Below are positions 7,893-45,242 of a DNA stretch of 47,637 nt, one piece after another. Every line of letters begins with the position of its first letter. Position 1 is the first letter of the stretch. Position numbers and translations under genes: made by a program. Origin of the DNA: Luteitalea sp. (lineage in GTDB: Bacteria; Acidobacteriota; Vicinamibacteria; Vicinamibacterales; Vicinamibacteraceae); assembly GCA_009377605.1 (NCBI GenBank), contig WHTT01000017.1, positions 1 to 47,637 on the forward strand. Direction: 5' to 3'. Below the pieces are notes generated by a model. The model saw only the letters and a list, made by a program, of their open reading frames with translations, did no database searches and was not told where the DNA came from.

Positions 7893-7934
7893 ACTGCTCG
7901 AGCGGCGCGGCCTCGCCATCGACCAGCGCGGTGT

Positions 7935-8873: not shown

Positions 8874-8922
8874 AGAGGCGCATTATAGACGGCGCCTCGA
8901 CGTCACCGAGGTGGAGAGCTAG

Positions 8923-10956: not shown

Positions 10957-11129
10957 ACGACTCGAGCCCCTCAGAGCGAGAAGCTCGACTCACTGTATCA
11001 AGTTTCCCGCGTGGGACCGACCGCGCGCCCGTCGGCCGACCTCGTCGATACGAGCGTTCCTCCGACCACATCGCCGGCAGGGTGCTGTGCGATCATGTTG
11101 AATCACTGTATGTGCGAGGAGTTGAGACG

Positions 11130-11663
11130 ATGACGAAGCCGAGGAGCCTCCCCAAAGTCGTGTCGCGAGAGGAGTGGCGTGCAGCGCGTGAGGCGCTGCT
11201 CGCCAACGAGAAGGCGCACACCCGCGCGGGCGACGCGTTGAACGCCGAGCGTCGCCGGCTGCCGATGGTCAAGATCGAGAAGAAGTACGTCTTCGCAGGA
11301 CCACACGGCGAGGCGACCCTCGTGGACCTATTCGAGGGCCGCCGCCAGCTCGTCCTCTACCACTTCATGTTCGGCCCCAATCAGAACGAGGGCTGTGACG
11401 GTTGCTCGATGGTGGTGGACAACATGGGACACCCGGCCCACCTGCATGCCTGCGACATCACACGCGTGCTCGTCTCACGGGCATCGCTCGAGAGGATCGA
11501 GCCGTTCAAGACACGGATGGGTTGGACGATCCCTTGGTATTCCTCGTACGGAAGCGACTTCAACCACGACTTCGGCGTCGGGCCCGAGCGCCCGCAAGCG
11601 GGTGTCTATCAGGACGGTGAGATGTTCGGCATGAGCGTCTTCCTGCGCGACGGTATCATGTAG
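11130..11663 (+). CDS. DUF899 family thioredoxin-like protein, C-terminally truncated
   Basis: A 177-residue thioredoxin-fold protein. The ATG at 11130 has a good ribosome site, GAGGAG at 11116-11121 with 8 nt spacing; the open frame upstream of it has no family similarity. Family hallmarks are present: SREEWRAAREALLANEKAHTR, then YVFAGPHGEATLVDLFEGRRQL, the CDGCSMVVDNMGH motif (CxxC at the expected place) and GWTIPWYSSYGSDFNHDFG. Members are usually about 210-250 residues and end with an F(H/R)TY...RG...YLD block. Here translation stops right after MSVFLRDGIM and I do not find the missing block clearly in another frame. The protein is therefore either a shortened variant or the product of a recent 3' truncation. 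Function of the family is not established. Confidence 0.75.
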   Translation: MTKPRSLPKVVSREEWRAAREALLANEKAHTRAGDALNAERRRLPMVKIEKKYVFAGPHGEATLVDLFEGRRQLVLYHFMFGPNQNEGCDGCSMVVDNMGHPAHLHACDITRVLVSRASLERIEPFKTRMGWTIPWYSSYGSDFNHDFGVGPERPQAGVYQDGEMFGMSVFLRDGIM

Positions 11664-11786
11664 CGCACGGTTATTCGCTCCTTGTCGGCCGCTTCACTCC
11701 GGGTCAGCTTGCGGGGCTGCCCGGTGATCGGCCTCTATTCTGACGTCGATCGAGGAGCGCCGAAATCGACACGCGGCCGAAAGCGG

Positions 11787-12263
11787 TCAGGCTCGCTGTA
11801 CAGCTTGACCGTTGGCCTCCAGCTTGCGGCGGAGCGCCATCATGACGCGGCGGGTCGTTTCTATGTCCTTGACCAACAGTCCGTCCGACAGGCTGTTGAT
11901 CCAGGGAGCCTGCAGGCGCATGGCGGCGTCGAACGTCTGGCTTCCCTTCTTGGTCAGAACCACGAGTTGCGCCCGCCGGTGATGCGGGTTCGCCTCGAAT
12001 GCGACGAGGCCGCTTCTCTGCAGGTCGTTGACGATTCGCTGGACATTCTGCCGGTTGGCGCCCAGGTTGCGGGCGAGCCAGGCCACCGGCTGTGGGCGTT
12101 CGGCGGCGACGATGGCGCCGAGGATCTGCCAGCGGGCGCTCGTCAGCCCCAGCCGCGCCACCAGCCGATCGCCCGCAGTCAGCACCAGGTTGTTGAGCCT
12201 GAAGAGGTCGAGGATCAGGCCGGTCAGGGCGTCGCCCGCTGGCGTTCGCTTGGCCTTCGTCAT
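11787..12263 (-). CDS. MarR family transcriptional regulator
   Basis: A 158-residue winged-helix dimer-forming regulator. The core runs from LTSARWQILGAIVAAERPQP through LARNLGANRQNVQRIVNDLQ (recognition helix) to the wing (HHRRAQLVVLTKKG), flanked by the usual dimerisation helices. I use ATG 12263; a GTG two codons upstream (12269) is also possible. It is divergent from the membrane protein gene at 12380, with a strong palindrome between them, so it probably represses both. On its own strand the order TTGACA, 18 nt, TCTATA, 6 nt, ATG suggests a leaderless mRNA. Its ligand is unknown. Confidence 0.88.
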   Translation of the reverse strand: MTKAKRTPAGDALTGLILDLFRLNNLVLTAGDRLVARLGLTSARWQILGAIVAAERPQPVAWLARNLGANRQNVQRIVNDLQRSGLVAFEANPHHRRAQLVVLTKKGSQTFDAAMRLQAPWINSLSDGLLVKDIETTRRVMMALRRKLEANGQAVQRA

Positions 12264-12280
12264 AGTCACTATAGAACTCT

Positions 12281-12300
12281 ATTGACATTATGATGTCAAT
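12281..12300. promoter_or_regulatory. Palindromic MarR operator overlapping divergent promoters
   Basis: The 20-mer ATTGACATTATGATGTCAAT has perfect 8-bp arms (ATTGACAT / ATGTCAAT) around TATG. Each arm contains a TTGACA hexamer, one per strand. On the plus strand TTGACA (12282-12287) is followed 17 nt later by TATTGT (12305-12310), serving the membrane protein gene. On the minus strand TTGACA (12299-12294) precedes TCTATA and the MarR start. A weaker related sequence, GTGACATCATGACAC, lies near 12327-12341. One bound dimer would cover both -35 boxes. Confidence 0.7.
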
Positions 12301-12379
12301 AGTCTATTGTCATCCATGATGCCATAGTGACATCATGACACCATACTAAGGAACTCGTCAGTAAGAAGACAGGCACGCC

Positions 12380-12853
12380 ATGTTGAAAGTGATCCATCCG
12401 GTGGCTGGCACCGTCGCGCTCCTCACGATCGCGACCTTCTGGCTCTCGACGGCGGTTACTGAGCTGTTTGCCTCGAAGGCGACTGTGACCATGGTCAAGA
12501 TGGCCATCCCCTGGGGCTTCCTGTTGCTGATTCCGGCGCTGGCGGCCGCGGGTGGGTCGGGCTTTGTGCTGGGAAAGGGCCGGAGGGGCGGGTTGGTCGC
12601 AGCGAAGACGAAGCGCATGCGGCTCATCGCCGCCAACGGCATCCTGGTTCTCGCTCCGTCTGCGCTGTTCCTCGCATCCAAAGCGAGAGCCGCGGAGCTC
12701 GACGCCGGCTTCTACACGGTGCAGGCACTGGAGCTTGTCATGGGAGCGGCGAACATCGCGCTACTCGGCCTCAACATGCGCGACGGCCTCACGATGAAAG
12801 GCCGGCTCCGCCGCCGGCTGGTGCAATCGACGAGAAGAGCTCGTCCTGCTTGA
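12380..12853 (+). CDS. Small four-helix membrane protein, MarR-linked
   Basis: A 157-residue integral inner-membrane protein with about four hydrophobic helices: HPVAGTVALLTIATFWLST (6-24), MAIPWGFLLLIPALAAAG (about 41-58), MRLIAANGILVLAPSALFLAS (about 80-100) and FYTVQALELVMGAANIALLG (about 111-130). The tail is Arg-rich and probably cytosolic. I do not recognise a named family with certainty, although similar small proteins occur next to MarR genes. The divergent layout and shared operator suggest it is induced when the MarR ligand is present; a role in tolerance to a small molecule is only a guess. Confidence 0.72.
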   Translation: MLKVIHPVAGTVALLTIATFWLSTAVTELFASKATVTMVKMAIPWGFLLLIPALAAAGGSGFVLGKGRRGGLVAAKTKRMRLIAANGILVLAPSALFLASKARAAELDAGFYTVQALELVMGAANIALLGLNMRDGLTMKGRLRRRLVQSTRRARPA

Positions 12854-13037
12854 GCGTCGAGAGCATTGTGAAATCGTGGGACAACGGTGACGGACTTCGC
12901 TCTCTTCTCCCGGCGAAGTCTAGAGTGGAGAGGCGATGGTCGTCTTGCCGACCTGGCGGGACCGGCTCGAGGCGCCGCCGGTGCTCTCGAGCCAGCGCGA
13001 GAGCTGGCAGGTGCGTCACCTGCAATCGACGTCTCCA

Positions 13038-26487: not shown

Positions 26488-29400
26488 ATGACAACGACGA
26501 TGACCGGTCCCAAAAGCGCCCGTCGCATTCTGATGCGCTCAGCGCTGTCGCTGAGCGTCGTGCTCCTCAGTCTCATGGCCTCCGCGACCGCCGCCGCTCA
26601 AGCGCTGTCCACCATTCGAGGGACGGTGACCGATCAGAGCGGAGGCGTCATCCCCGGAGCCACGGTGACGATCACCGACGTCGGAACGAACGTCCGCGTG
26701 CGCACCGTCGTATCGAACAACAGCGGAGACTACGAAGCGCCGGATCTTCACCCGAGCACCTACCAGGTGCGAGCGGAGCTCTCGGGATTCCGCACCTTCG
26801 TCGCCGACAGCGTCTTGCTCGACGGCTCACAAACCCGCCGCCTCGACATCGTCCTCCAGCTCGGCGAGCTGAGCGACCAGGTGGTGGTGGAAGCCGGCGC
26901 CGCCGTGATCACGACCGATAGCGGCGACATTTCGTCCAAGTTCACCGAGGAGCTGTTCGACGCCAGCCCGCTCGTCAACACCTACTACCCGCAGTCGCTG
27001 CTGACGACGCTGCCGGGCATCGAGAGCCAGATGGGAAGCTGGTCGCTCCGGATGGCCGGCCAGCCTGCCTCGCAGAACGCGCTCGGGATGGACGGCGTCT
27101 ATGAGGACGGCACGGTGAATCTCATCAACAACATGATGGACTTCACCGAGCTGACGGTCACAGCGGTCGGGAACACCGCGGATCAGGCGCGTGTCTCGTC
27201 GTTCAACATGATCTCGAAGAGCGGGTCGAACGACTTCCGCGGCAGCCTTTTCTACACGCACTTCAATTCGGCGCTGAACGCCCGGAGCTTCTTCGACCCG
27301 ACCAAGCTGCCCGCCCGCGAGCACAAGGTCCACTTCGACGCCTCGGGGCCTATCTTCCGGGACCGCACGTTCTTCTACGCCTCCTACTTCCATCAGAACA
27401 TTCCTTCGGCATCGTTCAATCGCTCTACCGTCGCGACCGCGGCGATGCGCGACGGGGACTTCTCGCAATTGCTGGAGGGGCCGAACGCCACGCCGCTCAT
27501 CGATCCGCGGACTGGCCGCCCATTCCCCGGCAACGTCATTCCACGCGACCGGATCAACCCGCTCTCCGCGCAGGTCCAGGAGCAATACATCCCGGCGCCG
27601 AACCTCGGCGACGCCAATACGCTCGTCAACAACCTCGGGTTCGAGCATCCGTATCCAGACGATCTCTACCGCGCCGACTATCCCATGGTGCGGATCGACC
27701 ATCAGGTCACGGAGAAGAACTCGCTCTACGGGCGCTATATCCAGCGGTATACGCCCTACGTGCTCAAGCGCGGCCTGCCGGGATTCGACTGGACGCGCGT
27801 CAGGTGGCATCGAGGCACGGTCTTCTCGAACACGCACGTGTTCTCGTCGAACCTGGTCAACACGTTTCGCGCCGGATGGCTGTGGGACTTCGTCGAGGAC
27901 GGCACCGAAGTCGACGGCTTCACGCCGCGCCGCGGTGACGAGGTCGTCGACGCGATCGGGCTGCAGGGCGTCAATCCTCGCGGGCTCCAGGCCATGGGCT
28001 TCCCGAGGATAGACATCACGGGCATGACGGCGCTCGAGACCATCGCCGGCGGTGTCAAGGAGGACAACCACCAGATCAACATCTCGAACACGGTGACCTG
28101 GGCCCGCGGACAGCACGTCTGGAAGTTCGGCGGCGACGTCCGGCGAGTGAGCCAGTTCGACGGATCGATTCCCGAGCCCACCTACGGGCGGTTCAACTTC
28201 AACGGGCGCTTCACGGGCGACGCGTATGCCGACTTCCTGCTCGGCCTGCCGCACTCGAGCGAGCGGCTGGATCCGCTGACCAATCGTAGGCAGGCGGCGT
28301 ATGAGATGGGCTTCTTCGCGATGGATACCTACAAGGCCACCTCCCGTCTGACGCTCGACTACGGCGTGCGATGGGACATCTTCACCTCGCCACGCTTTGA
28401 CGACGGCCTCCAGTTCAACTGGGATCAGGCGACAGGTGACGTCATCGTGCCCGCCGACGCGATGTCCGCCGTGAGCCCGCTCTACCCCGAGAACATCACC
28501 GTCCGCGGCGGCGACGTCGTTCCCGACATCAAATGGACCAACATCCGGCCTCGGCTCGCCCTGGCCTACCGCTTGAAAGACGACCTCGTCGTGCGCGGCA
28601 GCTACGGCGTCTTCACGGAGCAGATCGGATACTTCGATCGGCTGCAGGGCAGCGGCCCCTTCCAGATCGCCGAGACGTACATCAATGAGGTCGTGGATGG
28701 GCGGCCGTGGTTCGCCTTCCCCACGCCATTCCCCGCCGATCTCGCCTCGGCCGAGATCCCGTCGCAGAGCATTCGCGGCTTCCCGTCCGAAACGCGGCAA
28801 GGCGCCATCCATCAGTTCAGCGCCAGTGCCGAGCGGCAATTCGGCAAGATCGGTGTCCGCCTGTCCTATATCGGCTCGCGGAGCCGGGGGTTGAACTACA
28901 ATCTCAACATCAACAAGCCCGAGCCCAGCTTGGTGCCCTTCGACCAGGAAAGGCGGCCGTATTCGCAGTTCATCTCGGCCTCGGTCGTCCGCGAGAACGG
29001 CGCCAGCAACTACGACGCCTTCCAGGCGCAGGTCAATCGGCGCGCCGGGCTGGTAACCTTCGACGTCCACTACACGCTCCAGTCCAACCGCTCCAACTTC
29101 CTGAGCCTGGAGAACCCCTATGTGCCGAACGAGTGGCACCGGGAGCAGTACAGCGCCAGGCACAAAGCGATCGTCAACACGGTGATCGATCTGCCCTGGG
29201 GACGCGGACGGCCGTTCCTCTCCGACGCCTCTCCGTTTGTCGACGCGCTCGCCGGCAACTGGACGATCGTGACGGTCACCTACTTCCAGACGGGCCAGTA
29301 CTTCTCTCCCACCTTCTCCGGCGCCGATCCGTCGAACACCGACACCGTGGGCGGGCGTCCGGACCGGACCTGCGACGGCACTCTGCCGCGCGGCGAGCGA

Positions 29401-29715
29401 ACGGTGGAGCGCTGGTTCGACGCGAGCTGCTTTGCGGTGCCGCAGCCCGGCTTCTTCGGCACCGCCGGCGTGAACATCCTGGAGGGACCCGGCCTCAACC
29501 TGCACCACCTGAGCCTCGTGAAGCGGTTCTCCCTGCGGGGCGGTGTGAATCTCGAGTACGTGCTCGGCGTGTCGAACCTCTTCAACACGCCGCAGTTCAA
29601 TTACCCGCGCAGCGACATCAACGCGGCGAACCCCGGCGAGGTAACGGCCGTGCGCAGCGGGCGCGAGAACTCGGGCTCGCGCATGATGGAAATGACCCTG
29701 CGCCTCCGGTGGTAG
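26488..29715 (+). CDS. TonB-dependent receptor, carboxypeptidase-regulatory-like type (paralogue B)
   Basis: A 1075-residue outer-membrane receptor. I use the ATG at 26488 (MTTTMTGPKSARR), which gives a normal signal peptide ending MASATAAAQ; the open frame extends 25 codons upstream without similarity. The regulatory-like domain begins LSTIRGTVTDQSGGVIPGAT, followed by the plug (TYYPQSLLTTLPGIESQ) and the barrel, ending RLRW. It is strongly similar along its length to paralogue A at 20096-23323. The next gene starts 2 bp after its stop, so receptor and ceramidase-like protein are expected to be coexpressed. The ligand is unknown. Confidence 0.94.
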   Translation: MTTTMTGPKSARRILMRSALSLSVVLLSLMASATAAAQALSTIRGTVTDQSGGVIPGATVTITDVGTNVRVRTVVSNNSGDYEAPDLHPSTYQVRAELSGFRTFVADSVLLDGSQTRRLDIVLQLGELSDQVVVEAGAAVITTDSGDISSKFTEELFDASPLVNTYYPQSLLTTLPGIESQMGSWSLRMAGQPASQNALGMDGVYEDGTVNLINNMMDFTELTVTAVGNTADQARVSSFNMISKSGSNDFRGSLFYTHFNSALNARSFFDPTKLPAREHKVHFDASGPIFRDRTFFYASYFHQNIPSASFNRSTVATAAMRDGDFSQLLEGPNATPLIDPRTGRPFPGNVIPRDRINPLSAQVQEQYIPAPNLGDANTLVNNLGFEHPYPDDLYRADYPMVRIDHQVTEKNSLYGRYIQRYTPYVLKRGLPGFDWTRVRWHRGTVFSNTHVFSSNLVNTFRAGWLWDFVEDGTEVDGFTPRRGDEVVDAIGLQGVNPRGLQAMGFPRIDITGMTALETIAGGVKEDNHQINISNTVTWARGQHVWKFGGDVRRVSQFDGSIPEPTYGRFNFNGRFTGDAYADFLLGLPHSSERLDPLTNRRQAAYEMGFFAMDTYKATSRLTLDYGVRWDIFTSPRFDDGLQFNWDQATGDVIVPADAMSAVSPLYPENITVRGGDVVPDIKWTNIRPRLALAYRLKDDLVVRGSYGVFTEQIGYFDRLQGSGPFQIAETYINEVVDGRPWFAFPTPFPADLASAEIPSQSIRGFPSETRQGAIHQFSASAERQFGKIGVRLSYIGSRSRGLNYNLNINKPEPSLVPFDQERRPYSQFISASVVRENGASNYDAFQAQVNRRAGLVTFDVHYTLQSNRSNFLSLENPYVPNEWHREQYSARHKAIVNTVIDLPWGRGRPFLSDASPFVDALAGNWTIVTVTYFQTGQYFSPTFSGADPSNTDTVGGRPDRTCDGTLPRGERTVERWFDASCFAVPQPGFFGTAGVNILEGPGLNLHHLSLVKRFSLRGGVNLEYVLGVSNLFNTPQFNYPRSDINAANPGEVTAVRSGRENSGSRMMEMTLRLRW

Positions 29716-29717
29716 CC

Positions 29718-31232
29718 ATGGAAACGATCGACATGCTTCGCTCCGCTGTATATCGACGGAAGGCGGCCGCCATCACGACTGCCGCGCTCGTCTTCCTGCT
29801 GACGCCCCTGCTGACGCCCCTGCCGCTCGCGGCCCAAGACGACCCGGATCGGCGCCTGCAGGCAGGGGCCGCAGCCAGCAACATCACGCCTCCGCTCGGA
29901 GAGCTGATCGTGGGCGGCTGGAGCCCGAAGCCGGCCACTCACATCCACGACGAGCTCTACGCTCGCTGCCTCGTCCTCGACGACGGTCGCACCCGGATCG
30001 GTATTGTCCTGGCGGACAACGTCGGGATTCCGAGCCACGTCATCGAGGAAGCGAAGCGGCTCACCTTCGAGCGCGCCGGCCTTCGCCCCGAGCAGCTCCT
30101 CATCGCCTCCACGCACACGCACTCCGCCAGCACCGCACGCGGAAAGAACCGCTACGACGAATCGAGCCCGCTCGACGACTACCAGCGGTTCCTCGCGGGT
30201 CGTATCGCCGATGGGGTCCAGCGCGCCATTAACAACCTCCAGCCGGCCCAGATCGGATGGGGATCCGGGAGTCTTCCCGAGCAGGTCTTCAATCGGCGTT
30301 GGTTCATGAAGCCGGGCGCGGATCTGACCAATCCCTTTGGCGGCGTCGACAAGGTCCAAATGAATCCGGGCGTGGGCAACCCCAATCTCTTGAAGCCGGC
30401 CGGCCCCACCGATCCGGAGATTCGCTTCCTCTCCGTCAGAACGCCCGAGGGCCGCCCCATCGCGCTCCTCGCCAACTACTCGCTCCACTACGTCGGTGGC
30501 GTGCCGACGGGCCACATCTCGGCCGACTATTTTGGGGTCTTCGCCGAGCGCATGAGCCGTCTGCTCGGCGCGGACGCGCAGGATCCTCCCTTTGTCGCCA
30601 TGATGTCCAACGGCACCAGTGGCAACATCAACAACATCAACTTCGCGGGGGGCCAGGCGAAGCTCCCACCCTACGGCCGCATGAATGTGGTAGCCAACCA
30701 AGTGGCGGGAGAGGTCTTCCGAGCGCTGCAGGAGATCCCCTACGACGATCGGGTCCCGCTCGGCATGATCCAGCGTGAGCTGACCCTGGAGGCACGGCGG
30801 CCAGACGAGGCCATGACCGCGCGTGCTCGGGATATCCTCGCGCGTCCGGAGGATGCGCCGCAGGGCCACATCCGGGAGCGCACCTACGCCAAGCGGATTC
30901 TGCAGATCGTCGAGGCGCCGCCCCGAGTCGATATCGTGCTGCAAGCGGTGCGGATCGGCGACCTGGCGATCACGGCCATTCCCTTCGAGGTGTTCGTGGA
31001 GATGGGGCTGGAGATCAAGGAGAAGAGCCCGTTCCCCGATACGTGCACCATCTCGATCGCCAACGGCGCCTTCGGCTATCTGCCGACCGTGCACCATCAC
31101 GAGCTCGGCGGCTACGAGACGTGGCTCGGGACCAACCGTGTCGAAGTCCAAGCGGCGCCGAAGATCGTGTCGACAATGCTGGCCATGCTCGACGAGCTGA
31201 AGCCGGCGGGCACTGCAAGCGCGGCACGCTAG
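29718..31232 (+). CDS. Neutral ceramidase-like (non-lysosomal ceramidase N-terminal domain) exported protein, copy 1
   Basis: A 504-residue protein. The open frame reaches far upstream, but that part is antiphase to the receptor; the ATG at 29718, 2 bp after the receptor stop, gives a signal peptide (about residues 10-33, ending LPLAAQ). The fold starts at AGAAASNITPPLGELIVGGW. Likely zinc ligands are in IASTHTHSAST; the SNGTSGNINNINF motif and the Tyr-rich ANYSLHYVGG segment follow the ceramidase/acylase pattern. The C-terminal half (FEVFVEMGLEIKEKSPFP, HHHELGGYETW) is also conserved in copy 2. Eukaryotic relatives hydrolyse the amide of ceramide; in these bacteria an N-acyl amino sugar or lipid amide is equally plausible. 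Confidence 0.85.
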   Translation: METIDMLRSAVYRRKAAAITTAALVFLLTPLLTPLPLAAQDDPDRRLQAGAAASNITPPLGELIVGGWSPKPATHIHDELYARCLVLDDGRTRIGIVLADNVGIPSHVIEEAKRLTFERAGLRPEQLLIASTHTHSASTARGKNRYDESSPLDDYQRFLAGRIADGVQRAINNLQPAQIGWGSGSLPEQVFNRRWFMKPGADLTNPFGGVDKVQMNPGVGNPNLLKPAGPTDPEIRFLSVRTPEGRPIALLANYSLHYVGGVPTGHISADYFGVFAERMSRLLGADAQDPPFVAMMSNGTSGNINNINFAGGQAKLPPYGRMNVVANQVAGEVFRALQEIPYDDRVPLGMIQRELTLEARRPDEAMTARARDILARPEDAPQGHIRERTYAKRILQIVEAPPRVDIVLQAVRIGDLAITAIPFEVFVEMGLEIKEKSPFPDTCTISIANGAFGYLPTVHHHELGGYETWLGTNRVEVQAAPKIVSTMLAMLDELKPAGTASAAR

Positions 31233-34557: not shown

Positions 34558-36090
34558 TCAGGACGCGTGGAGGCTCTGGAAGAGCTCCAGGAGCGCCTTG
34601 ACGATCTTCGGAGACGCTTCGGCCTCGAGATAGCTCGATTTCGCTCGCCAGGTCTCGTATCCGCCGAGCTCGTGATGCTCCGGCGTCGGCAGATACCCGT
34701 TGTAGCCATTGGCGAGGGAGGTCGTGAACGTGTGCGTGAACGGACTCTTCTGCTTCAGCTCCAGCCCGATCTCGACGAAAACCTCGCACGGGATGGCGCC
34801 GATCACGAGAGAGCCGATGCGCAGCGCCTGGAGGATCACGGGCACGCGCGCGGGATACTCGCTCAGGAACAGCGTCTCGCGGGCGTAGATCTCCTCGCGC
34901 GTTTGCATGTTCGGCCCATCGGCCTGCGAGACGATCCGACGGGCGCGGTCGAGATCCTCGGCGCTCGGCATGCGAACCCCCAGGGTCAACTCAGTCGTGC
35001 GGGCGTCCAAGCCGACGCCCCGCTCGTACTGGAGCGTCTTGTAGACCCGCATCGCCTCGTCTGCGACGTCGTGCGCAACGCGCTGCATCTGAACGTAGGG
35101 CGCGTCCGACGGTCGCGCCTGGCGAAAGTTGATGTTGTTGATGTTTCCGCTCGTCCCGTTCGACAGAGCGGCGACGAACGGAGGGGGCCCCGGCGTGCCG
35201 TCGCGTCGCTTCGGCGCACTGGGTCGAAGCCGCTCTTCCATCCGGCGGGCGAACATGCCGAAGTAGTCGGCGGAGGCGTGACCTTCTCCCGTGCCTCCCA
35301 CGTAGTGCAGCGAGTAGTTCGCAAAAAGCGCGATGGGGCGGCCGCCCAGGGCACGCACTGAGATGATGGTCAGATCAGGATCGGTGGGACCGGCCGGCTC
35401 CACGAGATCCGGGCTCCCCACGGGCGGGTTCATCTGGACGAGGTCCTGCTCCCCGAACGGATTCGGCGGGATGGTGCCGGGGCGCATCTTCCACCGGCGG
35501 TTGAACACCTGATCCGGCACGCGCCCCACGCCCCACGCGATCTCGGCGGGCTCCACGTTGTTGACGGCCCGCCGCACCGCGTCCGCGATGCGGACGGTCA
35601 GGAGCTCGAGGTACTTCCGGTCCGGATCACTCTGGAACACCGGGCCCGCCGTCGGCGCCGAGTGCGTATGCGTCGCCGATGTCAGCATGTTCGCCACGGG
35701 AATCCCCGTGGAGGCGTGGACGAGCCGCTTCGCTTCGTCGAACACCGGCCGGGGGATCATGCAACTGTCGACCACGACGATCGCGAGGCGGGTCGCGCCA
35801 TCGTCCAGCACGAGCGCCCTGGCATGGAGCTCGTCGTGGACGTGCTCGACCTTGCGATCCTGCATGCTGCCGTTGATCGACAGCCCGAGCCAAGGCGTGA
35901 CGTTGCTCGTGGCGGCCCCCGCGCGCAAGCTGCCCGATGCTTGCGCCGCGCCGCGCGCGTCGGACGGGACCGCGGCGATCAGGAGACACAGCGACAGCAC
36001 AAAACCTGTTCGCTGCGCACGGTCGCAGCACACGCGAGACGCTCGCCGAAGCATATTTCCCGGCCCGATCTGCTTTGATTCAGCTGCCAT
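34558..36090 (-). CDS. Neutral ceramidase-like exported protein, copy 2
   Basis: A 510-residue protein with an N-terminal signal (TGFVLSLCLLIAAVPSDARG, cleavage near residue 50) and the same layout as copy 1: LRAGAATSNVTPWLGLSING, the TSATHTHSAPTAG His motif, NYSLHYVGGTGEGHASADYF, SNGTSGNINNINF and EVFVEIGLELKQKSPFTHTF, and HHELGGYETW near the end. It is divergent from the LacI regulator gene and convergent with the cytochrome gene. A promoter with TTGACC/TATTAA lies upstream, with a 7-bp GCACGGC/GCCGTGC stem-loop (36124-36141) in the leader. Start could be the ATG at 36090 or MLRRASR 12 codons later. Probably a periplasmic amidase. Confidence 0.86.
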   Translation of the reverse strand: MAAESKQIGPGNMLRRASRVCCDRAQRTGFVLSLCLLIAAVPSDARGAAQASGSLRAGAATSNVTPWLGLSINGSMQDRKVEHVHDELHARALVLDDGATRLAIVVVDSCMIPRPVFDEAKRLVHASTGIPVANMLTSATHTHSAPTAGPVFQSDPDRKYLELLTVRIADAVRRAVNNVEPAEIAWGVGRVPDQVFNRRWKMRPGTIPPNPFGEQDLVQMNPPVGSPDLVEPAGPTDPDLTIISVRALGGRPIALFANYSLHYVGGTGEGHASADYFGMFARRMEERLRPSAPKRRDGTPGPPPFVAALSNGTSGNINNINFRQARPSDAPYVQMQRVAHDVADEAMRVYKTLQYERGVGLDARTTELTLGVRMPSAEDLDRARRIVSQADGPNMQTREEIYARETLFLSEYPARVPVILQALRIGSLVIGAIPCEVFVEIGLELKQKSPFTHTFTTSLANGYNGYLPTPEHHELGGYETWRAKSSYLEAEASPKIVKALLELFQSLHAS

Positions 36091-36269: not shown

Positions 36270-36281
36270 TGAAACGTGACA
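36270..36281 (+). promoter_or_regulatory. Candidate LacI-family operator at the regulator's own promoter
   Basis: TGAAACGTGACA is a LacI-family-like palindrome (10 of 12 positions fit TGAAACGTTTCA). It abuts a TAGAAT sequence (36265-36270) that could be the -10 box and lies 18 bp before the ATG at 36300, so binding would repress the regulator gene. A related, more symmetric site precedes the NagB-like gene. Confidence 0.45.
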
Positions 36282-36299
36282 GTGATAGCGGCTTTCGAT

Positions 36300-37340
36300 A
36301 TGGCAATGGTAACCATCAAAGACGTGGCACGGGAAAGTGGGTTCGCTCCAACGACGGTTTCCATCGTCTTGAATGACGCACCGCTTGCGCAATACATTCC
36401 TGCGCGAACGAAGAACCTGATCAAGAGCGCTGCAGAGAAGCTCAATTACCATCCCAATCCGTATGCGCGCTCTCTCCGAAGCAATCGCAGTCATACGATC
36501 GGGGTGATGGTCTTCGATATCTCGGACCCGTACTGCGCGAACATCCTCAAGGGGATCGAGGATGGCCTCGACGAATCCCCCTATCTCGTCGTTCTTGCCG
36601 ACACGCAGAACGACAGAAAGCGGTTCGAGCGCGACATCGAGATGCTGCTCGCGCGACGGGTTGAAGGTCTCATTGCGGTCGCCAACTCGCTGTCGCTCGA
36701 GATCGACGTGTTGGCGGTCTTGAGGAAACGGGTGCTTCCGACGGTCATCATTGGCCGCAACTTTCGACAGGATTCGATGAGCACCGTCGTCGTCAACAAC
36801 GAGGCCGGAGGGCGCCTCGCCTTGCAACACCTCCATGAGCTGGGACACCGGGAGATCGCGTTCATCACCGGCCCGAAGATCATCGTCGACAGCGGCGATC
36901 GATGGAACGGTGTGCTCACTTATGCGCAGGAGGTCGGTCTGGCCATCGACCCTGGCCTGGTCATGGAAGTGAAGGAGCCCACGTCCAGTTACGAGAGCGG
37001 TTTCGAGCTCGCGCAAGAGCTCCTGCGCCGCCGCAAGAAGTTCACGGCAGTGCTCGCGTTCGACGATGTCACGGCCTTTGGCGTGATTCGGGCTCTCAAC
37101 AACGCGTCCAGGAGAGTGCCCGAGGACTGTTCTGTCATTGGCTTCGACGACGTGTCGATGGCTGGCTGCTATAATCCTCCGCTTACCACCATCCGCCAGC
37201 CGATGTCCGACTTGGGCTCGGTCGGGGTCAAGCTCCTGGTGGACGCCGTCAAGGCATCACTGGGCAAGACACCGTTCACGCCCGAGTCCATCAAGGTGGA
37301 GCCCGAGCTTGTCGTCCGGGAATCTACCCGCCATCCATAG
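36300..37340 (+). CDS. LacI family transcriptional regulator
   Basis: A 346-residue regulator. The N-terminal helix-turn-helix is textbook (VTIKDVARESGFAPTTVSIV, then LNDAP), followed by the hinge (NPYARSLRSNRSHTIGVMVF) and a periplasmic-binding-protein-like sugar domain (DISDPYCANILKGIEDG, VIIGRN, VTAFGVIRALNNASRRVPED, DVSMAGCYNPPLTTIRQP). I start at the ATG at 36300 (MAMVTIKD); MVTIKD at 36306 is also possible. The gene precedes the NagB/PIG-L/aldolase/kinase cluster on the same strand and is divergent from ceramidase-like copy 2, so it is a good candidate regulator for the island. Inducer unknown; a sugar or sugar phosphate is expected. Confidence 0.93.
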   Translation: MAMVTIKDVARESGFAPTTVSIVLNDAPLAQYIPARTKNLIKSAAEKLNYHPNPYARSLRSNRSHTIGVMVFDISDPYCANILKGIEDGLDESPYLVVLADTQNDRKRFERDIEMLLARRVEGLIAVANSLSLEIDVLAVLRKRVLPTVIIGRNFRQDSMSTVVVNNEAGGRLALQHLHELGHREIAFITGPKIIVDSGDRWNGVLTYAQEVGLAIDPGLVMEVKEPTSSYESGFELAQELLRRRKKFTAVLAFDDVTAFGVIRALNNASRRVPEDCSVIGFDDVSMAGCYNPPLTTIRQPMSDLGSVGVKLLVDAVKASLGKTPFTPESIKVEPELVVRESTRHP

Positions 37341-37454: not shown

Positions 37455-37612
37455 CACCAAGGACACGAAGGTCTTCACCACGAACACGAAGGACACGAAG
37501 AAAGGAAGGACACGAAGAAGAATTCAAGTGGTTTTCTTCGTGCTCTTCTTTCTTCGTGCTCTTCGTGCTCTTCGTCGTGAAATTCTTCGTGTTCTTCGTG
37601 GTTTGGTCACCA
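37455..37612. repeat. CACGAAG inverted-repeat element (copy 2, imperfect)
   Basis: A left part rich in CACGAAG (CCAAGGACACGAAGGTCTTC, ACCACGAACACGAAGGACAC) and a right part rich in CTTCGTG (CTTCGTGCTCTTCGTCGTGA, TTCTTCGTGTTCTTCGTGGT) can pair over most of their length with several mismatches and indels. It resembles the perfect copy at 34401-34530 but has diverged. It falls within the leader region of the NagB-like gene. Confidence 0.85.
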
Positions 37613-37632: not shown

Positions 37633-38559
37633 ATGAGACCTCCAAGCAAAATCGCGCGGGGCTGGTGGGACTACACGACGCTTGACGAGGCTGTCTTGAA
37701 GGAAGCCGCGCACCTCACTCCGGAGCGGTTGGCCGGCCTGGCACGCGAGGGATTTCAGATCCGGTTCTACGACACCCTCGAAGACTTCTATCTCGCGGAA
37801 GCGCTCGAGTACATCTCGGCCTGGTCGCGCTCGACGGCCGACAATCCCGTGGGCATCTGTGGTCCGATCGGACCGACCGAGCAGCTCCCGCTCGTCGCAC
37901 GCCTGGTCAACGAGCTGGGGCTCAGCCTGCGAGACGCGCACTTCTGGGCCATGGACGAATGGGCGATCGACGGGAAGGTCGTGCCATCGTCGCACCCGCT
38001 TTCCTTCGCGCGGACCAATTTGGAGCTCTGCTTCAATCGGATCGACAAGCGGCTCGCCATGCCAGCGGAGAACATCCATTTCCCCACCTGTCAGTCTGCC
38101 GACTACCGTCGGAGCTTCGACCACATCCACTGCGCCGTGATGCAGGGCGGGCAGGGGGAAGTGAAGCACTGGGCCTTCAACGATCCGTTGCCCCGCACCG
38201 GCCGATATCAGGACGAGCCGCCGTCGCCCGAGGAGTATCTCGCGCTCTCGACCCGCGTCGTCGACCTCCATCCCCTCACGCTCCTTCAGAACGCACGGAC
38301 GTCGGGCAACGGCAATTTGTGGCTGGTTCCGCAACAGGCGGTGACCGTCGGCCCGGTGGAAACATGGAAAGCGGAGAAGGTGTCCATCTGGCATGCCGGC
38401 ACTCATGACAATCCCTTCGGGCTCCGCCTGACGACGTTGATGATCGCAGAGAGGATCGTGGACACCTCCGTTCCCATGTCCCTGCTGGCGCGCCACCCCA
38501 ACGTGTGCTTCCACTTCTACCGCGGCGGCCTTGGCAGCACTGCTGTCGAGCTGCATTAG
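37633..38559 (+). CDS. NagB-like glucosamine-6-phosphate deaminase/isomerase homologue
   Basis: A 308-residue cytosolic sugar-phosphate isomerase-fold protein. The ATG at 37633 is chosen because the open frame upstream comes from the CACGAAG repeat. NagB landmarks: the phosphate loop [31 protein letters not shown] (MDEW at 107-110, equivalent to the catalytic Asp72 region), [10 protein letters not shown], and [14 protein letters not shown] (172-185). In that last motif E. coli NagB has DGH...NE; here the position of Asp141 is Val177 and Glu148 is Asp184, while His143 is kept (His179). Substrate or chemistry may therefore differ from glucosamine-6-phosphate deamination. It is the first enzyme gene after the LacI regulator and 65 bp before the PIG-L deacetylase gene. 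Confidence 0.8.
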
Positions 38560-38624: not shown

Positions 38625-39455
38625 ATGTCCGAGACGCCCCCTCGCGTGCTCGTTGTCATGGCACATCCCGACGATGCCGAGATTCTGGTCGGCGCAACAT
38701 TGCTGCACCTGGCCGCCGAGGGCTGGAAGACTGGTATCGTCACCATGACCGCCGGTGACTGCGGCTCCAACGAGACGCGAACCAAGGAAGAGATTTCCCG
38801 CATCCGGTATGCCGAAGCAAAGGCGGCAGCTGATTCCATCGGTGCGTGGTACGCGTGCGCCGGCGCGATCGACATCGAAGTGTTCGCCGACAGAGACCGC
38901 GTCCGCAGCATCGTGGAGCTGCTCCGGACGTTCGTGCCGGACGTCGTGATCACGCATTCACCGGCGGACTACATGCTGGATCACGAAGAAACCGCCCGCG
39001 TCGTCCGCGCCGCCGTGTTCGCGGCTGCGATGCCCCTGTACCAGACGAGAGGCGTGCCGCCAGCACCGGCGGTCCCTGCGACGCCCGCTCTTTATTACGC
39101 CGATCCCGTGGAGGGCACGGATTCGCTGGGCGAGCGCATCCTCCCCCACTTCTACGTCGACGTCAGTGATCGGATGGACGCTAAGCGTCGGCTGTTGAGC
39201 CACCATGCGTCGCAGCGAGAGTGGCTGCGCGATCATCACGGCGTGGACGAGTATCTGGTGCGCATGACCGAGTGGGCGGCCCGTTACGGTCAGGAGTGCG
39301 GCGTCGCGCATGCCGAGGGCTTCCGCCAGCACCTTGGCCATGGCTATCCCCATGGGCCGCGGCTGCAGGACGCGCTCAAGCCTCATGTACGCACCCGGCA
39401 ACGTCCAGCAGTTAAACAGGGTGACGCAAATCATGGCGCAGAACGAGGGGGCTGA
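38625..39455 (+). CDS. PIG-L family deacetylase
   Basis: A 276-residue zinc-dependent N-deacetylase of the PIG-L/BshB/MshB family. The metal motif AHPDDAE is at 13-19, and the third ligand is in [17 protein letters not shown]. Relatives remove acetyl from N-acetylglucosamine groups of small glycosides or glycolipids. There is no signal peptide. The C-terminal 20 or so residues (from about PHVRTRQR) look unlike the family, and the stop codon TGA lies inside the loop of a REP-like hairpin (39444-39465), so the natural tail may have been replaced. Next to a NagB-like gene, the pair suggests breakdown of an N-acetylated amino sugar. Confidence 0.88.
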
Positions 39456-40012: not shown

Positions 40013-40852
40013 ATGCAACCGTTACCGCGACTTCATCGTTTGTTCGGCGCCGACCGTAAGTGCTTCGACGTCGCTATCGATCACGGCTTCTTCAACGAGC
40101 GCTCGTTCCTCGGCGGCATCGAGAACATCTCACGGGCAATCGACACCGTCGTCGAGGCATCGCCCGACGCGATTCAGTTGAGCCCCGGCCAGGCGATGCA
40201 CCTGCAGTCCCGGCCCGGCCCCGTGAAGCCGGCGCTGGTGATGCGCACCGACGCGGCCAACGTCTACGGGTCGAAGCTCCCGCGCACGCTGTTCAGCTAT
40301 CTCATCGAGGATGCGGTCGAGCGGGCGGTTCGCCTCGACGCTGCCTGCGTCGTGGTCAATCTGCTCCTCCTTCCCGACCAGCCGGAGCTCCACCGCCAGT
40401 CGGTGGAGAACGTCAGCCGTTTGAAGCCGCGGTGCGAAGCGCTGGGAATGCCGCTCATGGTGGAGCCGCTCGTGATGCAGCCCAACGAGGTCAAGGGTGG
40501 ATACATGGTCGACGGCACCCTCGACAAGATCCTCCCCCTCGTGCGTCAGGCCGTGGAGCTCGGCGCCGACGTGATCAAGGCAGACCCTTGCGACGACGTC
40601 TCCAGGTATCACGAAGTCATCGAGATTGCCGGCGGCGTGCCGGTGCTGGTGAGGGGCGGCGGCAAGGCGCCGGAAGAAGAGCTCCTCGAGCGGACCTTCG
40701 CCGTGATGCAACAGGGCGCGTCTGGCATTGTCTACGGCCGCAACATCATCCAGCACGCACAACCCACGCGCATGACCAAGGCGTTGATGGCCATCGTCCA
40801 CGATGCGGCCACACCAGCCCAGGCCGTGAAGCTCCTCAGGGATGCTCGATGA
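40013..40852 (+). CDS. Class I aldolase, FbaB/LsrF (DeoC superfamily) type
   Basis: A 279-residue TIM-barrel Schiff-base aldolase. Landmarks: DVAIDHGFF (19-27), the Schiff-base lysine Lys189 in GADVIKADPCDD, the phosphate-binding loop VLVRGGGKA (211-219) and GIVYGRNIIQH (238-248). LsrF and FbaB cleave or thiolyse phosphorylated ketoses; here it could split a phosphorylated keto-sugar made by the neighbouring kinase and dehydrogenases. A GAAAGTGAG sequence precedes the ATG. Its stop overlaps the start of the next Gfo/Idh/MocA gene (ATGA), so translation is coupled. The exact substrate is not readable. Confidence 0.85.
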   Translation: MQPLPRLHRLFGADRKCFDVAIDHGFFNERSFLGGIENISRAIDTVVEASPDAIQLSPGQAMHLQSRPGPVKPALVMRTDAANVYGSKLPRTLFSYLIEDAVERAVRLDAACVVVNLLLLPDQPELHRQSVENVSRLKPRCEALGMPLMVEPLVMQPNEVKGGYMVDGTLDKILPLVRQAVELGADVIKADPCDDVSRYHEVIEIAGGVPVLVRGGGKAPEEELLERTFAVMQQGASGIVYGRNIIQHAQPTRMTKALMAIVHDAATPAQAVKLLRDAR

Positions 40853-41994
40853 GCACGCGAGAGATTCGATTCGGCATCATCGGCGGCGGGATGATGGGGC
40901 GCGAGTTCGCCAGCGCCTCCGCACGGTGGTGCCACTTGCTCGACTTGGACTTCGCGCCGAAGCCCGTCGCGGTGTGCGACACGAGCGCCGCCGCCCTCGA
41001 CTGGTTCTCGCGAAGCATTCCAGGCATCACTGTGACGAGCAACCACGAGGACCTCCTGGGGCGAAGCGACATCGACGCGATCTACTGCGCCGTTCCCCAC
41101 CACCTCCACGCCGAGCTCTATCAGGCGGTCATCCGCGCGGGGAAGCACCTCCTGGGCGAGAAGCCCTTCGGCATCCATCGCGAAGCGAACCGATCAATTC
41201 TGGAGGCCATCGAGGCGCGCCCCGGCGTCGTCGTGCGCTGCTCGTCCGAGTTTCCCTTCTTTCCCGGCGCCCAGCGGATGCTGCACTTCATCCGCGAGGG
41301 CCGCTTCGGCCGGATCATCGAGGTCGAGGCAGGGTTCCATCACAGCAGCGACCTGGATCCCCACAAGAAGATCAATTGGAAGCGGCGCGTGGCGTACAAC
41401 GGCGAGTACGGCTGCATGGGCGACCTGGGGATGCACGTGCTGCACATCCCGCTGCGCTTCGGATGGCTCCCCGATAGGATCTTCGCCTGCCTCTCGAACA
41501 TCGTGACCTCGCGGCCGGACGAGCAGGGTGAGCAAGCCCCGTGCGAGACGTGGGACAACGCCACCCTCGCCGGCGAAGTGCCGATGGACGGCTATCGCTT
41601 CCCCGTGATCTTGTCGACAAAGCGCATCGCGCCCGGCGAGATGAACACCTGGTTCCTCCGAATCTTCGGGACCCGCTTCTCCGCGGAGTTCAGCACGAAG
41701 CTCCCGAAGCAGATCCGGACGCTCCCCTACGCGTCCGGACAGCCGCAGGCGTGGCACGTCGCCGACGTCGGGTACGAGAGCTGCTATCCCGCGGTGACGG
41801 GAGGCATCTTCGAGTTCGGATTTCCCGATGCGATCCTGCAGATGTGGGCCGCGTTCTGCGACGAGCTGGTGAACGGCCGGGAGCGGATGAAGCAGCCCTT
41901 CTACTGTGTCACACCGGAGGAGACGGCCCTCAGCCATCGCGTGCTGACGTCGGCGCTCGAGTCTCAGCGAAAGGGAACGGCCGTTGACGTCTGA
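40849..41994 (+). CDS. Gfo/Idh/MocA family oxidoreductase (cytosolic)
   Basis: A 381-residue NAD(P)-dependent dehydrogenase. The start ATG 40849 overlaps the aldolase stop. The glycine motif GIIGGGMMG is at about 9-17, and the EKP signature is at 104-106 (GEKPFGIH). The family's usual second half follows (GEYGCMGDLGMHVLHIPLRF, with the conserved Asp and His). There is no signal peptide, unlike the exported member at 251. It overlaps the following kinase gene by 11 bp, so aldolase, dehydrogenase and kinase form a tight operon. It likely oxidises or reduces a ring hydroxyl of the pathway sugar. Confidence 0.88.
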   Translation: MSTREIRFGIIGGGMMGREFASASARWCHLLDLDFAPKPVAVCDTSAAALDWFSRSIPGITVTSNHEDLLGRSDIDAIYCAVPHHLHAELYQAVIRAGKHLLGEKPFGIHREANRSILEAIEARPGVVVRCSSEFPFFPGAQRMLHFIREGRFGRIIEVEAGFHHSSDLDPHKKINWKRRVAYNGEYGCMGDLGMHVLHIPLRFGWLPDRIFACLSNIVTSRPDEQGEQAPCETWDNATLAGEVPMDGYRFPVILSTKRIAPGEMNTWFLRIFGTRFSAEFSTKLPKQIRTLPYASGQPQAWHVADVGYESCYPAVTGGIFEFGFPDAILQMWAAFCDELVNGRERMKQPFYCVTPEETALSHRVLTSALESQRKGTAVDV

Positions 41995-43186
41995 GAGAGA
42001 CGGTTCGTTCGGGCGCGAGGCGGAGGCCGTCATCGGCGGGCACATCTGTCTCGACATCATCCCGGAGATCAAGGGCTCCGACGTTGCCTTCGCCGAGGGC
42101 TTCCTCCAGGAGATCGGCAAGGCAGTTGTCTCGACCGGGGGTGCGGTCTCCAACACCGGCCTGGCGATGCGTCGTCTTGGGATCGCGACCCTGTTGATGG
42201 GCAAGGTCGGCAACGATCTCTTCGGGCAGGCCGTCCGGCAGATCGTCGGGCGCCACGATCCGTTGCTCGCTCAGGGCATGATCGAGAGCCCAGGCGCCGT
42301 GACGTCCTACAGCGTCATCCTCAGTCCGGTGGGACGCGACCGGATGGTGCTACATTGTCCCGGTTGCAACGACACGTTCTCTGCCGAAGACATCGCATAC
42401 GTGCGGCTCGGCGGCGTCAAGCTGTTCCACCTGGGATACCCACCGTTGATGCGCCGGTTGATCGAGCGGGACGGGGCGGAGCTCGTGGAGCTGTTTCGGC
42501 GCGCCAAGGCGACCGGTGTCACGACGTCGCTGGACATGAGCATGCCGGACGAAGCCTCGTTTGCCGGCGGCGTCGACTGGCGCACCATCCTCTCGCGCGC
42601 TCTGCCGTATGTGGACATCTTCATTCCGAGCTTCGAAGAGACGATCTACACGCTGTACCCGGACAAGTTCCGCGCGTTCTGCGGACATGCCGGCGGCTTC
42701 ATCGCCGCCGCCGCGCCGGACCTGGTCCGCTCGATCGGCCGCGACCTCCTGAATCTGGGGCCAAAGATCGCCGGCCTGAAGTTGGGCCGCCTCGGACTCT
42801 ACGTCGCCACAGCGCCGGCCTCTCGCTGGGCCGAACCGGGCCGGGCGCTGTCGGCTCGACCGGAAGAATGGCACGCCCGCGAGTTGTGGTCGCCCGGCTT
42901 TCGCGTGGACGTCGTGGGGACCACGGGCGCCGGAGATGCCACGTTTGCCGGCTTCTTGGCAGCGCTGCTCCGCGGTCGCCCTCCCGAAGCCTGCGTCGCC
43001 TTCGCGTGCGCGTCCGGCGCCTGCAACACGGAAGCGGCCGACGCGCTCGGCGGCGTCCTGAGCTGGGATCAAACCTGGGACCGGATAGCAGCCGGCTGGG
43101 ATCGCCTCGTCTTGCCATTCCCCATGAGCGGGTGGCGGTGGCAGGACGGCGAGGGGGTCTGGACGACCGCCCACACCCAGGTATGA
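41984..43186 (+). CDS. PfkB family carbohydrate kinase
   Basis: A 400-residue ribokinase-like sugar kinase that starts at TTG 41984 inside the end of the preceding gene; no ATG or better ribosome site is available before the conserved GGHICLDIIPEI strand. The substrate loop (STGGAVSNTGLAMRRLG) and the second PfkB signature DVVGTTGAGDATFAGF (Asp309 to Phe324, catalytic base Asp318) are intact. It is longer than typical ribokinases because of an extra segment around residues 200-300 (FEETIYTLYPDKFRAF and onward). It probably phosphorylates the sugar acid or keto-sugar that the aldolase cleaves. Confidence 0.87.
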   Translation: MTSERDGSFGREAEAVIGGHICLDIIPEIKGSDVAFAEGFLQEIGKAVVSTGGAVSNTGLAMRRLGIATLLMGKVGNDLFGQAVRQIVGRHDPLLAQGMIESPGAVTSYSVILSPVGRDRMVLHCPGCNDTFSAEDIAYVRLGGVKLFHLGYPPLMRRLIERDGAELVELFRRAKATGVTTSLDMSMPDEASFAGGVDWRTILSRALPYVDIFIPSFEETIYTLYPDKFRAFCGHAGGFIAAAAPDLVRSIGRDLLNLGPKIAGLKLGRLGLYVATAPASRWAEPGRALSARPEEWHARELWSPGFRVDVVGTTGAGDATFAGFLAALLRGRPPEACVAFACASGACNTEAADALGGVLSWDQTWDRIAAGWDRLVLPFPMSGWRWQDGEGVWTTAHTQV

Positions 43187-43276: not shown

Positions 43277-44314
43277 ATGAGCGAGCGAAAAATCGGCATC
43301 GTAGGGCTGGGCTGGGTCGCCGGCGCGCACATCGCTGCGCTGAGCTCCGTCAAGGGCGCGCGTGTCACCGCGGTCTGCACGCGTCGCGACTTGAGCACGC
43401 AGGACGTCGAACGACAGGTCGGTATGCCGCTGAAGGTGTATCAGGACCTCGATTCGATGCTGAAAGACCCCGAGATCGACATCGTCGACATCTGCACGCC
43501 GCACCCGCTCCATCCCGAGCAGGCGATCGCCGCGGCGAAGGCGGGCAAGCACCTCATCATCGAAAAGCCCATCGCGATCGACTTCGAGAACGCGAAGGCG
43601 GTCGCCGCGGCGGTCAAAGCCGCTGGGGTGCACGCTTGCGTCTGCTTCGAACTCCGTTTCAGCCAGCACGCGAACGCAGTGCGATCGACGCTGGATCAGG
43701 GCCTGCTCGGTGAGCTCCACTACGCCGAAGTCGACTACTACCATGGCATCGGGCCCTGGTACGGCCAGTTCTCTTGGAACGTCAAGCGTGACTTCGGCGG
43801 GAGCAGCTTGCTAACGGCCGGCTGCCATGCCCTCGACCTGTTGCTCCACTTCATGGGCGGCGAGGTGGAGGAGGTGACGAGCTACAGCGGCCGATCGACG
43901 AGCCCTATCTTCGCGCCGTACGAGTACGACACCACGTCGGTGACACTCCTGAGGTTCTCGGACGGGCGTATGGGAAAGGTCTCGTCAGTGGTCGATTGTC
44001 TACAGCCCTATTACTTTCACATCCATCTCGTGGGCAGCGAAGGCAGCCTCCTGGACAATCGGTTCTATTCGCAGCGGCTCAAGGGGCTCCTGAAAGACCG
44101 CTGGAGCACGCTTGGGACGCCGCTCGTCGATTCGGGCGACGTGGCAGACCACCCGTATCAGCCGCAGTTCCAAGCCTTCATCGACAGCCTGGCCAACGGC
44201 GAGCCGATGCCCTGGACCAACTTCGACGCCGCCTTCGCATCGCATCGCGTCGTGTTCGCGGCAGACCTCTCCGCCCGCGATCGCCGTCCGGTGAAGCTCG
44301 CAGAGTTGGCCTGA
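43277..44314 (+). CDS. Gfo/Idh/MocA family oxidoreductase (cytosolic, second in cluster)
   Basis: A 345-residue dehydrogenase: glycine motif [12 protein letters not shown] (7-18), EKP at 96-98 ([10 protein letters not shown]), and the C-terminal domain with [20 protein letters not shown] (conserved His in the catalytic region). No export signal. Its C-terminus ([20 protein letters not shown]) is matched by the antisense remnant at 1547-1690, so a related gene once existed at the left end of the window. It is not closely similar to the Gfo/Idh/MocA protein at 40849, suggesting different substrates or steps. The DUF1080 gene follows 55 bp later. Confidence 0.9.
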
Positions 44315-44369: not shown

Positions 44370-45242
44370 GTGATAGTGACGCGAACCGTGCGGACCTGGC
44401 TTGTTGCGATTGCCATGACGGTCGGATGCCTGGAAACCGGCGCCATCATCGCCTCCGGTTCCGAGCAGGCCGTCAGACCGAGCGAGGTCATCCGGCTCTT
44501 CAACGGCAAGGACCTCACGAGCTTCTATACGTGGTTGGTGGACCATGAGCATGAGGATCCCGATCGGGTCTTCAGCGTGGTCGATCGAATCGATGGCGCG
44601 CCAGCCATCCGCATCAGCGGTGAGCACTACGGCGGCATCATCACTGAGAAGGCATATCGAGACTATCACTTGGTCGTCGAGTACCGGTGGGGCGTGGCGA
44701 CCTGGGGCGATCGCAAGGACCGCACCAAGGACAGCGGCGTCCTGCTCCATTGCCAGGGACCCGACGGAAACAGCCGTGAGGACTTCAACGGCCCGTGGAT
44801 GCAATCCGTCGAGTTTCAAATCATCGAGGGAGGCACCGGCGACGTCATCCTGGTGCGCGGTTATACGCAGGACGGGAAGCAGCTGACTCCCCGCCTTACA
44901 GCCACCGTCAGCGAAGACCGGAAGTGGGATCCGGACGGCACGCCGCGTGAGTTCGAAGGCGGGAGGATCGACTGGTACGGCCGCGACCCGGAGTGGAAGG
45001 ACGTGCTCGGCTTCCGCGGCCGCGAGGACGTGGAGCATCCCGACGGACAATGGAACCGCCTGGATGCCTTTGTCGAAGGCGACAGCCTCGTCTACATGGT
45101 CAATGGGGTCATCGTCAACAAGGGCAGCCATTCGACCCTTACCGGAGGAAAGATCCTGGTGCAATCGGAAGGCGCCGAGATCTACGTCCGGAGGATCGAG
45201 CTCGGTCCGCTCCCCGAGCCGACTTCCGCTGCCGCACGCTGA
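44370..45242 (+). CDS. Exported DUF1080 (3-keto-disaccharide hydrolase-like) protein
   Basis: A 290-residue protein starting with GTG 44370, preceded by AAAGGAG about 9 nt upstream. The signal peptide covers about residues 1-31. The DUF1080 (PF06439) jelly-roll fold is clear: VIRLFNGKDLTSFYTW, DYHLVVEYRWG, KDSGVLLHCQGPDG, QSVEFQIIEGGTGD, and the ending GGKILVQSEGAEIYVRRIEL. Family members act on 3-keto glycosides made by Gfo/Idh/MocA dehydrogenases; here a dehydrogenase gene precedes it directly. The protein would act in the periplasm, whereas the neighbouring dehydrogenases look cytosolic, so the partner may be the Tat-exported enzyme encoded elsewhere. Confidence 0.85.
   Translation: MIVTRTVRTWLVAIAMTVGCLETGAIIASGSEQAVRPSEVIRLFNGKDLTSFYTWLVDHEHEDPDRVFSVVDRIDGAPAIRISGEHYGGIITEKAYRDYHLVVEYRWGVATWGDRKDRTKDSGVLLHCQGPDGNSREDFNGPWMQSVEFQIIEGGTGDVILVRGYTQDGKQLTPRLTATVSEDRKWDPDGTPREFEGGRIDWYGRDPEWKDVLGFRGREDVEHPDGQWNRLDAFVEGDSLVYMVNGVIVNKGSHSTLTGGKILVQSEGAEIYVRRIELGPLPEPTSAAAR

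Follow-up and report, generated by a model that had tools for sequence, protein, structure and literature searches.

A distinct NagB-like family

Judged from sequence comparison, the protein encoded at 37633–38559 belongs to a distinct and highly conserved NagB-like family that has no profile model of its own, and this membership is the main finding beyond a reading of its active-site residues. The gene lies in a 47,637-nucleotide stretch of Luteitalea sp. DNA (contig WHTT01000017.1, hereafter the window). We tentatively propose, with slightly less than even confidence, that the family consists of deaminating aldose-ketose isomerases whose substrate would be an unphosphorylated amino sugar, with glucosamine the probable one. 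The gene and its neighbors in the window are as follows.

36276–37340, + strand: LacI-family regulator, immediately upstream of the NagB-like gene (profile match)
37633–38559, + strand: NagB-like protein, 308 aa, ATG to TAG open reading frame, with the motifs CGPIGPTEQ (loop), MDEW (Asp108) and QNARTS (Arg222)
Within 37633–38559, + strand: two further motifs of the NagB-like protein, one carrying His179 and one replacing the Lys208 region
38625–39455, + strand: PIG-L/LmbE-type N-deacetylase, the conserved partner, 65 bases downstream (PF02585, 89.7 bits, cut-off 28.2; motifs AHPDDAE and HASQ)
40013–40852, + strand: DeoC/LacD-family class I aldolase (PF01791, 126.9 bits)
40852–41994 (start approximate), + strand: Gfo/Idh/MocA oxidoreductase 1 (profile match)
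41984–43186, + strand: PfkB-family sugar kinase (PF00294, 77.7 bits)
43277–44314, + strand: Gfo/Idh/MocA oxidoreductase 2, a recurrent neighbor (profile match)
44370–45242, + strand: 3-keto-disaccharide hydrolase domain protein (DUF1080; PF06439, 83.9 bits), the end of the block

By sequence alone the link to NagB is faint. The best phmmer E value is 0.026 and the best profile E value 9.4e-5, TIGR00502 (nagB) gives the window protein 26.3 bits vs a cut-off of 236.9, and the NCBIfam nagB model matches 67/81 family members weakly. At E 0.01, none of the 81 members has a Pfam match; PF01182 (cut-off 27 bits) is found neither in the window protein nor in any other member (0/81). AgaS belongs to a SIS-domain deaminase family, and by the same Pfam result an AgaS-type SIS domain is likewise absent from the 81 members. 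An AlphaFold2 model built on the 81-sequence alignment (mean pLDDT 89.0, pTM 0.88) nevertheless has a predicted NagB/RpiA-type fold, and its nearest solved structure is NagB. The best structural matches of the model are glucosamine-6-phosphate (GlcN6P) deaminases: 2bkv, with a Z score of 25.5 (rmsd 2.1 over 230 residues), followed by 5hj5 (24.8), 1ne7 (24.6) and 1dea (24.5; rmsd 3.1 over 236). Overall, NagB structures score Z 20–25.5 against this predicted model, vs about 17–19 for the 6-phosphogluconolactonases. These last scores, together with the Gfo/Idh neighbors, are what could be said for a sugar lactonase like 6-phosphogluconolactonase, a member of the same superfamily, with Gfo/Idh making the lactone. 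We consider such an activity very improbable: NagB gives the higher Z scores (up to 25.5), and the family's AFN[DE]P motif is of the NagB type. The 6-phosphogluconolactonase family model is absent among the profile matches of the window protein and the family.

A genome scan returned at least 577 relatives among at least 588 stretches, of which 80 were kept, giving 81 members with the window protein. The kept relatives are 65–71% identical and carry the labels of Planctomycetota, Verrucomicrobiota, Bacteroidota groups, Chloroflexi, Armatimonadota, Poribacteria, Ignavibacteriales and others, among which labels of metagenome-assembled genomes may be wrong. Match scores fall into two separate groups, at about 480–634 bits and below about 115 bits, fragments apart; therefore, the family is well bounded. 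Counting matches above 450 bits and including the seed genomes, we find it in 87/288 sampled genomes of Verrucomicrobiota (the phylum of locus L020, by its title), 24/294 of Planctomycetota (the phylum of L043), 6/199 of the window's own phylum and 3/395 of Bacteroidota (the phylum of L021). Two more Verrucomicrobiota genomes, G1116 and G907, have broken copies, interrupted by frame changes or stops; the family gene can decay in single lineages, or these assemblies contain errors. A PF01182 protein is present in 15/15 family genomes examined, with 6-phosphogluconolactonase and NagB counted together, and an argument that the family replaces canonical NagB was dropped because the two are not separated in that count. 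A search of open-licence PMC literature, by title and start of abstract, returned no account of the family or of a free-glucosamine deaminase, which is not proof of absence.

Residues that differ from NagB

The preliminary description of this gene placed Val177 at Asp141 and Asp184 at Glu148 of E. coli NagB, with His179 at His143, and read the protein as a NagB homologue lacking two catalytic acids. The E. coli sequence was taken from NC_000913 and aligned by profile to the window protein; in addition, 16 NagB-like proteins including E. coli NagB (7 NagB-type, 7 family and 2 cousin rows) were aligned with MAFFT. Both alignments give the same register, with Asp108 of MDEW at Asp72, and so both residue assignments stand. 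Asp108 is present in 81/81 members, as are Lys178, His179 and Arg222. In the Asp141 column the 81 members have I (50), V (25) or T (6), and in the Glu148 column D (80) or E (1). The pattern across 81 members is therefore, on sequence grounds, a family trait and not a sequence error or a mark of a decayed gene. To speak of two lacking acids is, however, an overstatement: Asp is a conservative substitute for Glu at 148, and all 81 members have an acid at position 176 (D 63, E 18), the residue just ahead of the Asp141 column.

The consequence drawn from the two acids by themselves is weak. The PDB sequences of the B. subtilis and S. mutans NagB proteins read GIGRNGH and GIGRNAH, showing that working GlcN6P deaminases have Asn at 141. 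In the MAFFT alignment, three other NagB-like paralogs of the same genome (L002–L004) combine Asn141 with Asp148, and the same-genome NagB, L001, is more canonical than the window protein, with Asn141, Glu148, the canonical loop and Lys208. An absence of deamination simply because both acids are gone was therefore rejected. The suggestion of isomerization without deamination, drawn earlier from the two missing acids, does not follow from them, as Asp72 and His143 are also kept; it is further opposed by the PIG-L partner described below, which points to a substrate with a freed amino group. The companion suggestion that the enzyme acts on another sugar is supported, by the phosphate loop, the Lys208 register, the separate L001 and the PIG-L and kinase neighbors. 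As for what the two acids do in E. coli NagB, PMC4008608 describes a Glu148 that contacts His143 when the enzyme is in the R state and Lys160 when it is in the T state, and PMC4281351 lists Asp141 and Glu148 among the contacts of the allosteric activator. The Lys160 column is Val in 7/7 family rows of the MAFFT alignment, which fits an enzyme without the E. coli allosteric switch.

The phosphate site

The known NagB proteins (E. coli 1dea, B. subtilis 2bkv; TIGR00502, PF01182), which turn GlcN6P into Fru6P and ammonia, share with the family the fold, Asp72, His143, AFN[ED]P and the Arg172 register. The window protein differs in being just 21–27% identical to E. coli NagB and in having some 40 extra N-terminal residues that carry WWDYTT; the family differs at the 141 and 148 columns, as above, and at the phosphate site. 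Arg172 and Lys208 are phosphate ligands of NagB. Lys208 is present in all 7 NagB-type rows of the MAFFT alignment and missing from that register in the 7 family and 2 cousin rows; its place in the family is taken by a G-x-H-D-[NS]-[PA]-x-G-x-[RK] stretch (HDNPFGxR), with H258 and D259 in 81/81 members. The E. coli loop PTGGTP, which begins helix 1, becomes P[IV]GPT in 81/81. According to PMC4281351, the substrate phosphate is bound by the helix at this loop.

Two features of the site point the other way. Arg222, the equivalent of Arg172, is invariant (81/81), and residue 265, one place off the Lys208 column, is basic throughout (R 80, K 1), so phosphate could still be bound, and a clean claim of lost phosphate binding was dropped. 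These residues, together with the retained Asp72 and His143 and an Arg near the Lys208 place in the cousin proteins P0001 and P0002 too, fit a divergent but ordinary deaminase of GlcN6P or another hexosamine 6-phosphate. In such a pathway PfkB would phosphorylate GlcNAc, PIG-L would stand for NagA and the NagB-like protein for NagB, with Arg222 and Arg265 holding the phosphate. We regard this as unlikely, since L001, with its canonical loop and Lys208, is already encoded in this genome, every family member has the altered loop, the TIGR00502 score is far under its cut-off (26.3 vs 236.9 bits) and we know of no sugar-6-phosphate substrate of PIG-L.

Conserved gene partners

The most constant partner of the family is the N-deacetylase, with a PIG-L match in 63 of the 80 relatives' loci. 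Genes were called by a codon-position GC caller, which recovered the NagB-like gene in 130/140 loci; 5 of the 10 missed (L218–L222) are cousin loci, not expected to pass. In 82/130 loci the same strand carries a member of the PIG-L cluster no more than 3 kb away, upstream in 62 and downstream in 20 (L021 and L202 being the same place). A Pfam scan of immediate neighbors, covering same-strand genes of up to 800 aa within 3 kb, finds PIG-L in 54/97 upstream and 18/90 downstream positions, and PfkB in 15/90 downstream. By tblastn, the 80 loci contain homologs of PIG-L (64), Gfo/Idh 2 (24), PfkB (14), DUF4432 (12), mannitol-dehydrogenase-like (10), XylA-like (9), MFS (8) and GH20 (3) proteins.

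The window PIG-L scores 118.1 bits with TIGR04001 (BshB1), under the cut-off of 182.5. The PIG-L partner in L043 matches 8bgn (E 7e-12), PH0499 (2e-9) and BshB1-type structures; by sequence this partner resembles both archaeal diacetylchitobiose deacetylase and BshB1, under the BshB1 and BshB2 cut-offs. A joining of NagB-like and PIG-L functions is also seen in the "glucosamine-6-phosphate deaminase-like" fusion NF002557/PRK02122, the second half of which we take to be PIG-L. This model matches 15/81 members weakly (best family E 7.4e-5, cut-off 384 bits) and the window protein not at all at E 0.01; unlike the fusion, the two functions here are on separate genes.

Other parts of the window block recur with the family. 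In L034 and L163 the family gene is accompanied by the DeoC aldolase, Gfo/Idh 1, a PfkB-like kinase and Gfo/Idh 2, an arrangement close to that of the window; the aldolases there are 65–66% identical to that of the window and the first oxidoreductases 48%. Homologs of Gfo/Idh 2 occur at 53–67% identity in the family loci L203, L034, L163, L006, L077 and L062, and at 44% beside the cousin in L091. The window PfkB shares 46% identity with its counterpart in L046, which directly follows the NagB-like gene there. The kinases of L043 and L034 are only 23–28% identical to these two and to each other, so a kinase has joined the NagB-like gene on more than one occasion. The NagB-like gene of L043 shares its row with a XylA-like isomerase, PfkB, DUF4432 and a mannitol-dehydrogenase-like protein. 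In Segetibacter koreensis DSM 18137 (L021), PIG-L and then the NagB-like gene are followed by a NagP-like permease (NF046060, 367 bits, under the cut-off of 625) and next by a GH20 hexosaminidase. GH20 also occurs in L036, together with a permease of this type, and in L066. With GH20 in 3/80 loci and the NagP-like permease in 2/80, the link to GlcNAc rests on few loci. Neither was found near the NagB-like gene within the window, and the best NagP match in its own genome is weak (23.9 bits).

Upstream of the block, the window contains two ceramidase-like proteins (28707–31232, + strand, and 34558–36090, − strand) that are ∼50% identical to each other and lie on either side of a large protein whose end is cytochrome-like. 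Comparable sets lie near the family gene in a few other loci (ceramidase-like in 5/80, the large cytochrome-ended protein in 7/80). A TTCGTG-rich repeat is found at 37500–37610, just upstream of the NagB-like gene; its 23-base core occurs three times in the genome at two or fewer mismatches, and a reversed control gives no occurrence.

Distant cousins

Our statements on more distant cousins cover L091, L094 and L224–L226; an automatic pattern search for more in L127–L132 gave 0/6. The cousins are 23–29% identical to the window protein. The P-V-G-P loop is present in P0002 and in the cousins of L224–L226 and absent from P0001, and none of these proteins has an Arg in the Arg172 register. In L091, Gfo, NagB-like and PIG-L-like genes (the last named from motifs) form one row.

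Haloarcula plasmids carry two NagB-like genes with a GlpR regulator, a prokaryotic ketohexokinase, a DeoC-family aldolase, Gfo/Idh and sugar transporters, the first three of these neighbors lying downstream of a NagB-like gene. The ketohexokinase was identified by a Pfam scan of L224 (PF25270, E 2.3e-137). On this plasmid, from Haloarcula sp. GH36, two divergent NagB-like genes adjoin the ketohexokinase and the class I aldolase (7928–12920); the NagB-like and kinase genes are annotated there as hypothetical proteins. On a Vibrio nigripulchritudo plasmid (L225, 2995–10221) the cousin, which aligns to residues 28–290 of the window protein at 27.5% identity, lies among a nucleoside hydrolase, an adenosine deaminase, a ribokinase, an adenosylhomocysteinase-like protein and a NupC-type transporter. 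No annotated PIG-L is found beside the haloarchaeal or Vibrio cousins in the stretches examined; their substrate, therefore, may not be an amino sugar. These rows suggest that the common chemistry may be aldose-ketose isomerization of free sugars, with deamination where a C2 amino group is present.

The same rows bear on whether the family itself might isomerize a neutral or keto sugar and not deaminate at all, with PIG-L and Gfo/Idh making or tailoring the sugar. The nucleoside-salvage setting in Vibrio, with its hydrolase and ribokinase, the haloarchaeal ketohexokinase with no annotated PIG-L, and the Gfo/Idh genes in 24/80 family loci would all be in keeping with this. We nonetheless give it a low probability for the family, as an N-deacetylase for most constant partner points to a freed amino group.

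Proposed function

On the free-amino-sugar reading, the scheme would run as follows. PIG-L would first deacetylate N-acetylglucosamine or some compound that contains GlcNAc. The NagB-like enzyme would then isomerize the unphosphorylated 2-amino-2-deoxy aldose and release ammonia to give the free ketose (glucosamine to fructose), with Asp108 acting as C2 base and His179, together with Asp184, opening the ring. The PfkB kinase would phosphorylate the ketose afterwards, and the class I aldolase of this genome would cleave the phosphorylated ketose. We infer the chemistry, the substrate and the order of these steps, taking the fold as a prediction and the conserved residues, altered loop and gene partnership as observed.

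What favors a free amino sugar as the substrate is the predicted fold closest to NagB, the AFN[DE]P motif and the kept Asp72 and His143; the PIG-L partnership, the recurrent PfkB, the L043 row and the L021 row with NagP-like permease and GH20; and the P[IV]GPT loop, the haloarchaeal cousin row with ketohexokinase and the separate L001 with Lys208. Counted against it are the invariant Arg222, the basic residue 265, the small number of GlcNAc loci, the Gfo/Idh genes (24/80), which have no clear place in the scheme, and the cousins without annotated PIG-L. A wider proposal, which joins a non-phosphorylating route (GlcNAc, PIG-L, free fructose, PfkB) to a larger P[IV]GP-loop clade for free sugars that includes the haloarchaeal and Vibrio plasmid proteins, is conceivable but doubtful.

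To our knowledge, known NagB-type deaminases act on 6-phosphates. If true, the route through a free amino sugar would offer a new and shorter way to use sugars like those of chitin, and the default reading of these proteins as GlcN6P deaminases would be corrected. Present in roughly 30% of the Verrucomicrobiota genomes sampled and tied to a deacetylase, the family offers a testable two-enzyme hypothesis for amino-sugar use by environmental bacteria.
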